From a virus, in IMG/VR virus record IMGVR_UViG_3300009551_000015, positions 1-62,546 of that record: DNA of 62,546 nt. One strand, written 5' to 3'. A model generated the notes under the pieces. The model was not told the origin of the DNA. It ran no database searches and saw only the letters and a program-made list of their open reading frames with translations. Positions 5,068 through 10,516 of the stretch are shown here, in pieces. How positions within the stretch are numbered: position 1 is the stretch's first letter; each line of letters starts with the position of its first letter. Made by a program: the position numbers and the translations under genes.

Positions 5068-5316
5068 TTAGCTACCCTCCCCCGAGGATTTACCGACCGG
5101 GAGGACGTCCAACGGAGCCGGCGAAGTCTCCCTCGCCGAAGTGCCTATCCCCTGACCGCTCGCAACCTGCGCACGGCCTCGACCAACTTGAGGCGCAAGT
5201 CTACGTCTGAGAAAATGCCCCCCCTCCAGTGCCTCGGCCGCTTCGATGACCTGCCGCTCGGCCCGCTGGATTGCGCTTTGCTCCTCGATGACTTCTAGCG
5301 CCGTTGGCTTAGACAT
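5068..5316 (-). CDS. Hypothetical protein
   Basis: 82 aa. The helical N-terminal half (ALEVIEEQSAIQRAERQVIEAAEALEGG) is followed by a basic, Gly/Ser/Pro-rich tail likely to be disordered. The ATG is preceded by AGGA and overlaps the end of the 172-aa gene by 8 bp, so the two are co-translated. No family recognised. Confidence 0.6.
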   Translation of the reverse strand: MSKPTALEVIEEQSAIQRAERQVIEAAEALEGGHFLRRRLAPQVGRGRAQVASGQGIGTSARETSPAPLDVLPVGKSSGEGS

Positions 5317-5827
5317 TCTGCGCGATCCTCTTAGGAAGGGATTTTATCGGTGCTAACTCGACCGCCAGTTCCTTCTGCGCGGATGCGACAGCCTGAGCCA
5401 TCCTCGCGCTGACCATCATTTGGTGGTCGAGCCGCTTTTGGCCTGTATCGTCAAGTCGCTTGCGGTCAACCCAACTGAACCACTTAACCGATCGCCCCAA
5501 CTGCTTCGCCTTCTGCTTTGTTCGGGTTTCCGCGAACTCCAGAACTTCAGCCGGATTCAAAACCTTCAGCCCGACCGATGGTTGCCACTTGATAATGATT
5601 CCGTTGTCGTGCTTCTGCTTAGAAATCCAAGCGTTAACTACGCCGTAGTAGCGCTGACTAGTCCTAGCAATCTCCAAAATGGCTTCCAGTTTCGGGTGGG
5701 AGATTATCAGCCCCTCAGTAAGTTCCGGAACCGGGAATGCCTCTGACAGCCGCTTGATGTCAGGCCCGTAAGGAATTCCACCTTTGAAAATCTGCGCGTA
5801 ATCCAAAGCGTTTTCTCCTTTAGCCAT
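5309..5827 (-). CDS. Conserved-looking hypothetical protein, partner of the 221-aa gene
   Basis: 172 aa with a good GAGGAG site. It looks like a compact alpha-helical protein with Trp-rich central strands (YYGVVNAWISKQKHDNGIII, W113 region) and a C-terminal helix rich in Ala, Gln and Lys. I do not recognise it. Its leader (5828-6002) is one of two GG-pentamer regions in the genome, the other lying before the 221-aa gene. The pair therefore probably share regulation and perhaps a nucleic-acid-related role in the recombination/replication module. Confidence 0.75.
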   Translation of the reverse strand: MAKGENALDYAQIFKGGIPYGPDIKRLSEAFPVPELTEGLIISHPKLEAILEIARTSQRYYGVVNAWISKQKHDNGIIIKWQPSVGLKVLNPAEVLEFAETRTKQKAKQLGRSVKWFSWVDRKRLDDTGQKRLDHQMMVSARMAQAVASAQKELAVELAPIKSLPKRIAQNV

Positions 5828-6002
5828 TGGCTCCTCGCCTAACCCAACCGCACCGAGCCCCGCACTGCCCAGCCCTACCCCGGCATACCAGTCCCCTTCG
5901 AATAGGGGCGGCCATAAGCCCCTTACCTAACCCCACCGCGCCGGGCCGTGCCTGGTCCTGCCGCACCGCGCACAACCGGGCCATGCCTCGCCCAACCAAA
6001 CT
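5828..6002 (-). repeat. GG-pentamer repeat region A with central hairpin
   Basis: On the plus strand almost every 5-nt block reads NNCCN, for example AACCC-AACCG-CACCG-AGCCC, so the transcript reads NGGNN for over thirty units. The period of five rules out ordinary coding. At 5893-5908 the phase is broken by a hairpin whose transcript strand is CCCCT-ATTCGA-AGGGG. The region separates the 221-aa gene from the 172-aa gene and ends in the latter's ribosome site. Candidate RNA- or DNA-protein binding array, or a two-tetrad G-quadruplex former. Confidence 0.85.
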
Positions 6003-6668
6003 TTAAGCCGCGGAAACCTTAGCCGTGAACATCCCGAACGGTCCCGGCGTCGGCGCTCCCGGTCGCCAGTCGCCAAGCCCTTTTAGCCGCCCTGAGATGT
6101 CCAAAATCTGCTGCAGCGTTTCCACCTTGATTTCCTTGTCGATAATCAAGATCTGCCCCGCGATGGACCACTTATCAAAACGCGGGCGAACACGAATATG
6201 CTTTGAAGCACCGATCTTCGCTCGTTTTGTGAAAAGCGAGAAACCAAGTGCGTCGGCAGCCGCAACGTTTTCCTTGAATGTCTCCAGGTCCCTGCACTGG
6301 CTAATTGCCTTCATTGGAATTGCCTTGCCATCGATAGCCAGCGGCCAATGGAACTCCTCGCACAGCAACCCGCTCTGAGACTGCGCTTTAAAGGTCTTCT
6401 TGCCTTTCCCTGTCGGCACTTCCGCCGCGCCTCCCATGATGGAGCGCATGATGTACTCGGAAGGGATCGTAACCACGCCAGTAGCAGGGTGATCGTAGTT
6501 TAGGCATCCAACCCATCGCCATGGTGGTGTACGATCATCACCAGCCTTGGAAGAGCCCTTGTTCTTTGGGTTGTTCTTCCAAGCGTCCATCTCATCGGCG
6601 AAATCTATGTTGTCCGCATGCATCAGTAGCGGAGTCGTGCCAGTTATCTCTACACGTACCTTTTTCAA
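6003..6668 (-). CDS. Conserved phage protein with a possible RAMP-like N-terminus
   Basis: 221 aa from a TTG start behind GAGGAAGG. It starts KKVRVEITGTTPLLMHADN, a G-T-x-PLLMH pattern seen in a widespread but uncharacterised phage family and loosely like the first strand of ferredoxin-fold RAMP (Cas7-type) proteins. It ends with a Gly-rich GLGDWRPG...GPFGMF segment that could be a RAMP-like glycine loop. That similarity is my inference from pattern, not a domain hit. The gene is bracketed by GG-pentamer regions of 345 and 175 bp, consistent with the protein binding its own message. It could equally be an ssDNA-binding protein. Confidence 0.75.
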   Translation of the reverse strand: MKKVRVEITGTTPLLMHADNIDFADEMDAWKNNPKNKGSSKAGDDRTPPWRWVGCLNYDHPATGVVTIPSEYIMRSIMGGAAEVPTGKGKKTFKAQSQSGLLCEEFHWPLAIDGKAIPMKAISQCRDLETFKENVAAADALGFSLFTKRAKIGASKHIRVRPRFDKWSIAGQILIIDKEIKVETLQQILDISGRLKGLGDWRPGAPTPGPFGMFTAKVSAA

Positions 6669-7013
6669 GCCTTCCTCTTTCTTGCACCAAAGGTGCCCTT
6701 GCCCTACCAGTCCGGGCCACGCCCTACCATGCCTAGCCTAGCCACGGCGAACCGAGCTTTACCCCACCGCGCCGAGCCTTGCCTTGCCGTGCTCTGCCAA
6801 ACCCCGACCGACCCCTTCTAATAGGGGAAACTTTCTCTGCTCTCCCCATTGGGGACCTCGCCCTACTCAGCCTTGCCGCGCCTGGGCTAGCCAAGCCTTA
6901 CCTGGCACGACCAAAAATCTCCCCATTGGGGACCTCGCCGAACCGTGCGCCACCGCAGCATGCACTACCTGGCCGAGCCGAGCTCTACCGCGCCAATGCC
7001 CTGCCTACCAAAC
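6669..7013 (-). repeat. GG-pentamer repeat region B with hairpins and a 22-bp direct repeat
   Basis: A 345-bp gap without a credible gene. From 6691 to 7012 the plus strand keeps the NNCCN period-5 pattern (AGCCT-TGCCT-TGCCG-TGCTC), about sixty units. A hairpin at 6812-6827 (transcript CCCCT-ATTAGA-AGGGG) is a near copy of the one in region A. Two further CCCCATTGGGG hairpins at 6844-6854 and 6921-6931 lie inside a 22-bp exact direct repeat (6841-6862 and 6918-6939). The ribosome site of the 221-aa gene follows at about 6672-6679. Confidence 0.85.
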
Positions 7014-7184
7014 CTAGGCCACCATCCGCATCTCTTCCCATGAATAGGTCATCTCCCGCCCGCAATCGAGGCACGCGACGTACGTCAGGCGAACCTTCTG
7101 GCCGTCGGCAGTGAAGCGCGTCTCGGTCAGCGGGAAGCTGGTCTTGCGGTGGCGGCAGCCCAAAAGCATCTGCAAAAGTCTCAT
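7014..7184 (-). CDS. Small zinc-ribbon-like protein
   Basis: 56 aa: MRLLQMLLGCRHRKTSFPLT, then a middle segment and VACLDCGREMTYSWEEM. The Cys-x-His and C-x2-C pairs and the Phe-Pro-Leu-Thr motif match a common small phage/bacterial zinc-binding protein type. ATG with AGG 7 nt upstream; the stop marks the left edge of coding before the GG-pentamer region. Function unknown. Confidence 0.65.
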   Translation of the reverse strand: MRLLQMLLGCRHRKTSFPLTETRFTADGQKVRLTYVACLDCGREMTYSWEEMRMVA

Positions 7185-8625: not shown

Positions 8626-9042
8626 CTAGATTGCCTCCAAATGAGCGATAACTTGGCTGACGAAATTACGTTGCTCGCTCTCATTGCACGAATAGTCACC
8701 TTCCCAGTCGTGCTCTTTGAAGAACTTGAGCATCTCATCGCGCGGCATCCATTTGATGCCTTCCTCCAACTCCTGTATCAACTTGGCGAGTTCTGCGTGG
8801 TTATCGCACGCCTGAAGAGCATCACATCCCGAACATGAACCCCAGCCGAACTGAAGGTAACCAAAACCATTGCCAGTTTCCGCGTATAAAATTCGCGTAT
8901 CGCCTTGCCAGTCATCGTCTGAAACTTCAATCGCAACGTTGCCGAAAAGGCCAATAATGAGGTCGTAGCCACATACGGAAAACCACGAATCACCATCAGG
9001 GTCAGGAGGGACTAATTTATGCGCTACCTCCAAGTAGTCCAT
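8626..9042 (-). CDS. Hypothetical acidic phage protein
   Basis: 138 aa, acidic. A distinctive centre, GYLQFGWGSCSGCDALQAC, has four closely spaced Cys with Trp and Gly, followed by a helix and IKWMPRDEMLKFF and HDWEGDY segments. I have an impression of a conserved phage/plasmid protein with a YGxxSCSGCDALQ signature but cannot name it. Its start overlaps the exonuclease stop. Confidence 0.65.
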   Translation of the reverse strand: MDYLEVAHKLVPPDPDGDSWFSVCGYDLIIGLFGNVAIEVSDDDWQGDTRILYAETGNGFGYLQFGWGSCSGCDALQACDNHAELAKLIQELEEGIKWMPRDEMLKFFKEHDWEGDYSCNESEQRNFVSQVIAHLEAI

Positions 9043-9770
9043 TAAACGCCCACCCTTCCGAAGCTGTCGCGGTAGATCATGTCGAGGTCGGCATCGGACA
9101 CACCCAGGTTGTCAGGCATTGGCTCTGCGTCAGGCGAACCGATGATCGGCGTGAATGGCCCGTAAAGCTTAGCCAACAGCGCGCGCTTCTCAAGCAGCAC
9201 CTCCACAAAAGCACTGAGAGCCATCGCCAGCTTCGCGATAAAGGGCTCGTCGCGCTCCACCTTGATGGCGCACAGCGGGAGTTCCGGGTGATACGATATG
9301 GCCCATGCGCAGTCATACCCGCCGACATAGAGTTGAGTTTGGATTTGCGGGCGGTATTCATCTGCGATTGCGCCAGTTAGCAGGTACCGAACGTGTACCT
9401 CTTCAGAAGGGCACTTGATCTCGCAAATCTCGTTCTTGCAAACCACCTTGCGATCAGGAGAGCAGCCAATCATGCCGTCGTCCGTGGTGAGGAAGCCAAT
9501 CGGCTCGACCGCCATATCAGTCTCGAACGAGAACCGCTCAGCGGCTGGTCCTTCAAGTGCCGTTCCCCGCGCCATCGCATCAGTCTCAATCCCTGTGATT
9601 GGATGCCCGACCATATATTCCGCCAACAGGTGATAAAGGTATCCATCGGCCTGCTTGCTCAGTTCGCAGGTCTTCGGCGTGATGATGCGCTTCACTTCGC
9701 TGGCAGTGACGATCCCGGCGCGAAGCCGATGCCATTCTGGTGAGTTCTGCAAACACTGGTGGACTATCAC
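9042..9770 (-). CDS. YqaJ-family (lambda Exo-type) recombination exonuclease
   Basis: 242 aa with GTG start overlapping the ERF stop (GTGA). The viral recombinase motifs are ordered correctly: ARGTALEGPAAERF with Glu73, GCSPDRKV with Asp106, EIKC with Glu117 and Lys119, and QIQTQLYVGGYD with Gln142-146. Such enzymes resect double-strand ends 5' to 3', leaving 3' tails for a partner annealing protein; the ERF gene immediately upstream supplies it. Length is normal for the family. Confidence 0.93.
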   Translation of the reverse strand: MIVHQCLQNSPEWHRLRAGIVTASEVKRIITPKTCELSKQADGYLYHLLAEYMVGHPITGIETDAMARGTALEGPAAERFSFETDMAVEPIGFLTTDDGMIGCSPDRKVVCKNEICEIKCPSEEVHVRYLLTGAIADEYRPQIQTQLYVGGYDCAWAISYHPELPLCAIKVERDEPFIAKLAMALSAFVEVLLEKRALLAKLYGPFTPIIGSPDAEPMPDNLGVSDADLDMIYRDSFGRVGV

Positions 9771-10516
9771 TTTTGGCCCCCAGTCTTCGCGCGGACCTTA
9801 CCCTGCAGCGCACGGTACGCGATTGGGAATGCTGCCTGATTGATATCCTCGAACCGCTCTACGCCGATCAGCTTCAGAAACGCGAGGGTCTGACGGTCAT
9901 CCATTTCAGCGGCGATCTTCATGTCCAGCAGCGAGTTCAATTGCTTCTGATCAATGAGCCCTACGCCATTGCCGTCATCGTCCTGTCCCTCGGTAACGAG
10001 GTTCAGCAGCCGCTCGGTCAGATACCGACGCGCGTATTTATCGCTGCTGCCTACCGCCTGGATTGCGTTCTTGCCGCCGCTGGTATCGGCTGGCAAGCGC
10101 ATCTTTGAGGACTTGCTGTGCCCCATGCGATGCGAGATGGTGCCAACGTACACATCGCCCTTGTCAGTGAACTCCGTGTCGAAGGATAGCGAGAACCCAA
10201 ACTCAGCCAGCAGCGGGCGGATGGCCTTATCGATGTTCTCGTACGTGGCGAACCGGAAGTCGACATCCTTGTATTTGACGCGCCCATCTTTGCCGATCCG
10301 CGGAAGCTTCGGCTGGAGCAGCGACATAGCCTCATTGAATGCAGCCGCTGCCTCGTCGCGCTTCAACTCGCGCACTATCTCGAGCATCTTGCCGAGCTTG
10401 TCAGCGTCGAAGCGCTGATCTGTGGCCGCTTGGCCGACCAACCGCATGAGCACCGATGAGTCGGATTCGGCCGCGCCCGTTACTGCCATTTCTCGTTCAA
10501 TTACTGCCGGCGTCAT
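9767..10516 (-). CDS. erf: ERF-family single-strand annealing protein
   Basis: 249 aa. The ERF core spans about 60-190: a lysine-rich YKDVDFRFATYENIDKAIRP, then LLAEFGFSLSF, then SSDKYARRYLTERLLNL and an acidic EGQDDDGNG. This order defines the P22 ERF-type annealing proteins. Translated with the exonuclease by a GTGA overlap, so the two form a phage-type recombination pair for end-joining or circularisation. The C-terminal 50 residues are a helical tail ending in Lys/Gly. Confidence 0.92.
   Translation of the reverse strand: MTPAVIEREMAVTGAAESDSSVLMRLVGQAATDQRFDADKLGKMLEIVRELKRDEAAAAFNEAMSLLQPKLPRIGKDGRVKYKDVDFRFATYENIDKAIRPLLAEFGFSLSFDTEFTDKGDVYVGTISHRMGHSKSSKMRLPADTSGGKNAIQAVGSSDKYARRYLTERLLNLVTEGQDDDGNGVGLIDQKQLNSLLDMKIAAEMDDRQTLAFLKLIGVERFEDINQAAFPIAYRALQGKVRAKTGGQK

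Follow-up and report, generated by a model that had tools for sequence, protein, structure and literature searches.

A GG array every five bases around a phage RAMP gene: very probably a VIPR locus, with a candidate guide against a transposase

Introduction

What is encoded by two long stretches of phage DNA in which GG recurs every five bases, and why do they lie next to the genes for two small proteins? The stretches occur in IMG/VR virus record IMGVR_UViG_3300009551_000015, whose 62,546 nucleotides form the window analysed here. One precedes a 221-aa gene and the other a 172-aa gene, both read leftward. A first-pass annotation, made from the letters of the sequence, had pointed to a multimeric nucleic acid-binding protein with a five-base step, and named the 221-aa product as the likely binder of its own leader.

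A 2026 preprint on VIPR describes a system in which phages encode a RAMP protein, Vipr, together with an accessory protein, Vap, and guide RNAs called vrRNAs (PMC13142463). Each vrRNA comprises YNNGG units, 9–16 in the SUSP1 and P. fulva clades, followed by a structured tail. These RNAs skip one base between successive NN pairs when reading DNA, the skip falls on the codon wobble position, and the targets lie in competing mobile elements (PMC13142463). VIPR, which is proposed to be related to CRISPR class 1 effectors and older than they are, is carried mainly by phages or prophages (PMC13142463); a literature search returned no second paper on it. We are confident that the window contains a VIPR locus of the SUSP1 kind, bearing vap1, and it probably corresponds to the preprint's type II (PMC13142463). 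VIPR itself was already known; what is new here is the candidate transposase target and a set of tRNA-like array elements in actinophage relatives. The locus and about 70 relatives extend VIPR to environmental phages.

The virus record contains Erf and YqaJ recombination genes, a large terminase, an integrase-like frame and a capsid gene related to prophage copies; the phage is tailed and its host probably an acidobacterium. The YqaJ-like exonuclease and Erf-like annealing protein are encoded side by side at 9042–10516 as a phage recombination module, which lies upstream of the VIPR locus and runs in the same leftward direction.

Array structure

The five-base period of GG was confirmed in both stretches. 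Autocorrelation of CC on the plus strand, compared with 2,000 dinucleotide-preserving shuffles, gave z values of 4.5, 4.0 and 4.8 at lags 5, 10 and 15 for positions 5828–6002, and of 5.8, 6.6 and 5.7 at the same lags for positions 6669–7019. At the other lags both stretches were at or below the shuffles. The best chain of GG at step five scored 15.4 in the arrays and no higher than 4 in the remainder of the window or in shuffled windows, and the rest of the 62.5 kb contained no second chain above chance. Tandem Repeats Finder reported nothing at the two stretches, as would be expected of a unit with only GGY fixed.

On the leftward strand the arrays comprise 79 units, of which 63 have an exact GG. 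The repeat unit is NNGGY, not GG with free flanks: of the 74 complete units, 71 have a pyrimidine as their fifth base, a constraint missed in the earlier description of two fixed bases. That description had also put the arrays at about thirty and sixty units with few exceptions. We counted 28 (16 + 12) before the 172-aa gene and 51 (17 + 12 + 22) before the 221-aa gene, and 16 units (20%) lack an exact GG, vrRNA A being the worst with 11 of 17 exact.

The upper stretch extends to about 7016, and the two stretches resolve into five arrays, three of them (A, B and C) before the 221-aa gene and two (D and E) between the genes (Table 1). The phase shifts within the stretches are explained by the presence of five separate RNAs, each with a terminal hairpin. 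If each array represents one RNA, the unit numbers of B, D and E (12, 16 and 12) are inside the published range, and those of A and C (17 and 22) are above it. In vrRNA B, 3 of 12 units are without GG. An Rfam search matched no family, and promoter and terminator scans gave results at chance level. An inverted repeat, CCCCTATTNGAAGGGG, is present in exactly two copies in the window, one between B and C and one between D and E, and is absent from the related loci described below.

Table 1. Coordinates of the genes, vrRNA arrays and intervening elements at the locus.
Feature	Position	Strand	Description
vap (Vap1 family)	5309..5806	(-)	165 aa from TTG 5806; 172 aa from ATG 5827
vrRNA E	5822..5891	(-)	12 units; tail hairpin AGCC-AAT-GGCT at 5822-5832; directly upstream of vap
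Inverted repeat	5893..5908	(-)	CCCCTATTCGAAGGGG; between vrRNA D and E
vrRNA D	5910..5999	(-)	16 units; tail hairpin GGCT-TAT-GGCC at 5910-5920
vipr	6003..6668	(-)	221-aa RAMP (Cas7-like); G-loop GLGDWRPGxxTPGPFGMF near C-terminus
vrRNA C	6684..6805	(-)	22 units; tail hairpin GCACC-TTT-GGTGC at 6684-6696; directly upstream of vipr
Inverted repeat	6812..6827	(-)	CCCCTATTAGAAGGGG; between vrRNA B and C
vrRNA B	6843..6914	(-)	12 units, ten of them targeting (6860-6909); tail hairpin TCCCC-AAT-GGGGA at 6843-6855
vrRNA A	6920..7016	(-)	17 units, exact GG in 11; tail hairpin TCCCC-AAT-GGGGA at 6920-6932

The Vipr and Vap proteins

We identify the 221-aa protein as Vipr, the RAMP component that would bear the guides. 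It falls in phrog_4652 (E 1.6e-20), the PHROG family that also contains SUSP1 Vipr, and a profile built from seven sequences matched a single PDB chain, 36pp, 'SUSP1 Vipr protein' (E 2.9e-15). Structure prediction, one of the checks proposed in the first-pass annotation, yielded an AlphaFold2 model with a pLDDT of 83.4, whose top PDB matches were Cas7/Csm3-type chains at modest TM-scores of 0.35–0.5; in BFVD the model matched a phage 'RAMP superfamily' protein. The original guess of a RAMP or Cas7-like protein was thus upheld by the fold match, by the profile match to 36pp and by the preprint (PMC13142463).

The 172-aa protein falls in phrog_5926 (E 7.7e-7) together with SUSP1 Vap1, which places the Vap1 family at this locus. 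The relation is visible by profile only; pairwise BLAST gave no match between Vap and SUSP1 Vap1. Structure prediction, proposed for this protein as well, gave a confident AlphaFold2 model (pLDDT 90), predicted to be helical and winged-helix-like. Its fold matches were weak, and many of them were winged-helix regulators, which fits the 'predicted DNA binding' of the preprint (PMC13142463) without proving DNA binding. A Pfam CBF_beta match was below the cutoff and not credible. The start codon of vap is probably TTG 5806, since ATG 5827 lies inside the vrRNA E hairpin and a Shine-Dalgarno sequence, AAAGGAG, is present at 5815–5821. A vap homologue was found at 73 of 79 related loci.

Arrays and tails at related loci

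Our scans yielded 13 genome loci and 61 viral loci related to the window locus. After removal of exact repeats, 72 loci remained for counting arrays, some of their contigs being near-identical. The same arrays, which the first-pass annotation had suggested looking for beside homologues, were present at 68 of these 72 loci, with 255 on the vipr strand versus 1 on the opposite strand. Two outcomes that the first-pass annotation had named as refuting, a lack of period 5 and a lack of arrays at homologues, thus both turned out in favour of its observation. The homologous loci carry several arrays each, located upstream of, between and downstream of the genes. The NN positions are hypervariable between loci: once identical guides had been merged, no run of seven NN units was common to guides of different loci; the sole exception was a pair whose contigs are near-identical.

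All five arrays in the window end in a hairpin of 4–5 bp directly after the last GG, and all five hairpins pair, with four different stem sequences. The related loci offer an independent covariation test of such a tail. Across the window's class of loci, a hairpin followed 105 of 125 unique array ends, compared with 19.9 in shuffles. Among 12 distinct tails picked by their AAT loop only, 59 of 60 stem cells were paired, with up to four pair types per position. The stem sequence varies across the clade and the pairing is kept. Folding energies of single tails were not below those of shuffles, and the case for the hairpin rests on position and covariation rather than on energy.

Comparison with known systems

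The window has a Vipr-family gene, an adjoining vap of the Vap1 family, YNNGG arrays with hypervariable NN flanking vipr, and structured 3' tails whose stems covary, and we observe this association across the related loci. In the VIPR of the Escherichia phage SUSP1 (KT454805; PMC13142463) the same two protein families occur, Vipr in phrog_4652 and Vap1 in phrog_5926, and NNGGY arrays lie on the vipr strand on both sides of vipr; we found arrays in the SUSP1 locus at the vrRNA positions reported in the preprint (PMC13142463). The window differs in that its Vipr is 24% identical to that of SUSP1, arrays are also present between vipr and vap, two RNAs exceed 16 units and the likely host belongs to the Acidobacteriota. 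The tails differ as well. In the SUSP1 clade the tail is invariable and pseudoknotted, and 'invariable' is the term that the preprint applies to its clades (PMC13142463), whereas the window has short hairpins that vary in sequence within one locus. The Pseudomonas prophage VIPR, represented among our loci by LESphi2 and in the preprint by the P. fulva clade (PMC13142463), shares the Vipr and Vap1 families and has arrays ending in GC-rich hairpins, but the LESphi2 Vipr is 25.7% identical to that of the window.

The predicted RAMP fold of the window Vipr is also shared with the Cas7/Csm3 proteins of class 1 CRISPR-Cas. Those RAMPs multimerise on RNA at a fixed step. The window unit differs from class 1 CRISPR-Cas in being 5 nt long with a non-contiguous code, and the locus contains no CRISPR repeat-spacer array, nor are the neighbouring genes cas genes; PADLOC called no system.

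By analogy with the published system (PMC13142463), the five leftward arrays would be transcribed and cut into vrRNAs. Vipr subunits would coat each vrRNA, about one per NNGGY unit, with GGY held and NN exposed, and the resulting complex would bind DNA that matches the NN pairs when one base is skipped between successive pairs. Once bound, it would block transcription of the target, helped by Vap.

Predicted target of vrRNA B

Relatives of the capsid protein with 48–49% identity were found in 2 of 247 Acidobacteriota genomes, and for this reason targets were sought in that phylum (200 genomes), using the published 1-nt-skip code. Under this rule guide B matched 29 places in 23 of the 200 genomes, compared with 3 control matches. 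Its ten inner units, with at most one mismatch, matched 17 places in 15 genomes, where 0.11 were expected by chance. When the sites are read antisense, the skips fall at codon third positions and the encoded peptide is mostly LHFAWYNFCR or a close variant, the C-terminal motif found in a DDE transposase with IS1/IS240-like domains. A perfect copy was found in one genome (G350), where the open frame around it is just 59 aa long. Guide B had no match in the 23 hit genomes, which had been chosen for their 1-skip matches, when the skip was set to 0, 2 or 3.

These results lend moderate support to vrRNA B targeting a DDE transposase gene of Acidobacteriota, which are soil bacteria, with its skips on codon third positions. 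A coincidence multiplied by a multi-copy element would account for the match as well. Since all matches lie within one homologous transposase family, they are closer to one event than to seventeen. Uncorrected for the five guides and for end choices, the chance of a perfect 20-base match in the genomes searched is about 0.002 per guide; by our own estimate, the significance corrected for guide number and end choices is about 0.01–0.03. We nevertheless consider coincidence the less likely reading, because ten consecutive units are matched in full, matching ceases at the end units of the guide, the skips coincide with codon third positions, the pattern was found in 0 of 200 Pseudomonadota genomes, and the published VIPR targets are mobile elements (PMC13142463).

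On balance we lean towards a guide directed against the best-conserved motif in a family of host transposases, in which the wobble skip would let it cover many copies and alleles, so that the phage might silence host insertion sequences. Such a use of VIPR is absent from the main text of the preprint (PMC13142463). Applied to guide B, the published code yields a target predicted independently; should that target be true, the role of VIPR would widen from phage–phage conflict to the control of insertion sequences, and the wobble skip would show how one guide covers a gene family.

Scans of Acidobacteriota genomes and viral contigs gave no convincing target for guides A, C, D and E. In Acidobacteriota, E and A had 3 and 2 isolated matches, those of E being at control level. 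Exact scans of viral contigs with D (10 units), E (9 units) and B (10 units) found none. Eight-unit scans with D and C gave 5 and 2 matches, which we regard as chance because none extend. When all 236 guides were searched locally against the related loci, with skips of 0–3, there was no excess over shuffled guides, and tblastn with decoded peptides found nothing, nor did it with a control peptide, the method being too insensitive.

Alternative readings of the locus

Autoregulation, as the first-pass annotation had it, would have the 221-aa protein bind the repeats in its own mRNA and repress its own expression in the manner of TRAP. TRAP, the tryptophan RNA-binding attenuation protein, is a ring that reads regularly spaced short RNA motifs; it has another fold than Vipr, and a fixed leader target where Vipr has variable guides. 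The placement of one array directly upstream of vipr and of another directly upstream of vap would suit a leader, as would the vrRNA E hairpin covering the annotated ATG of vap. Against this, homologues carry several arrays upstream of, between and downstream of the genes, so that at the 68 array-bearing loci some are not placed as leaders; the NN positions are hypervariable between loci, as befits guides; and the same RNAs of close relatives are guide RNAs by experiment (PMC13142463). We regard autoregulation as very improbable and have abandoned it for the guide reading. The more general idea of a multimeric binder with a 5-nt step survives as a Cas7-like filament, and neither a TRAP-type ring nor a two-layer G-quadruplex is needed. 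Stacking is conceivable in principle for GG at every fifth base, but a G-quadruplex or a GC-rich compositional repeat with no protein partner has next to no chance of being the explanation, as 68 of 72 loci show the arrays tied strand-specifically to a single protein family and the window has no comparable array elsewhere.

A further possibility accepts VIPR but takes the locus for a decaying remnant, with intact genes, drifting guides and little or no present function. The arrays of two relatives (L001 and L026) are near-perfect in GG, unlike the window with its 16 imperfect units in 79, and four of five guides are without a detected target. With a fifth of the units lacking an exact GG, most of all in vrRNA A, some of the array may be in decay. 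Against this, the two reading frames are intact, the tail hairpins pair in five of five cases despite four different stem sequences, and guide B matches a conserved motif in spite of its three units without GG. A remnant is therefore unlikely, though less so than autoregulation.

Array variants among the relatives

In the VIPR loci of Gordonia and Mycobacterium phages, about ten tRNA-like elements lie in alternation with the GG arrays (L008, 3560–3860; L011, 2690–2935 and 4180–4400; L012, 1630–1690 and 2960–3150). These elements have an acceptor-like stem and a T-arm, GGTTCGANTCC, with no anticodon arm, and may serve as tails or processing signals; tRNA is not mentioned in the main text of the VIPR preprint (PMC13142463).

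In a second class (L015–L020, L024, L063, L067, L068, L070 and L072), many arrays of vrRNA length follow one another without hairpin tails; a short RAC/ACT linker connects each directly to the next, and the phase shifts there. A hairpin followed 12 of 67 tails in this class, which is the shuffled level, and L016 carries eleven such arrays consecutively. The linker-joined class possibly corresponds to the 'staggered arrays' of the preprint (PMC13142463). Unbroken arrays of about 28–43 units, far above the published 9–16 per vrRNA, were present in L026, L027 and L038. The genome of Desulfovibrio sp. An276 contains two separate VIPR loci (L016 and L024).
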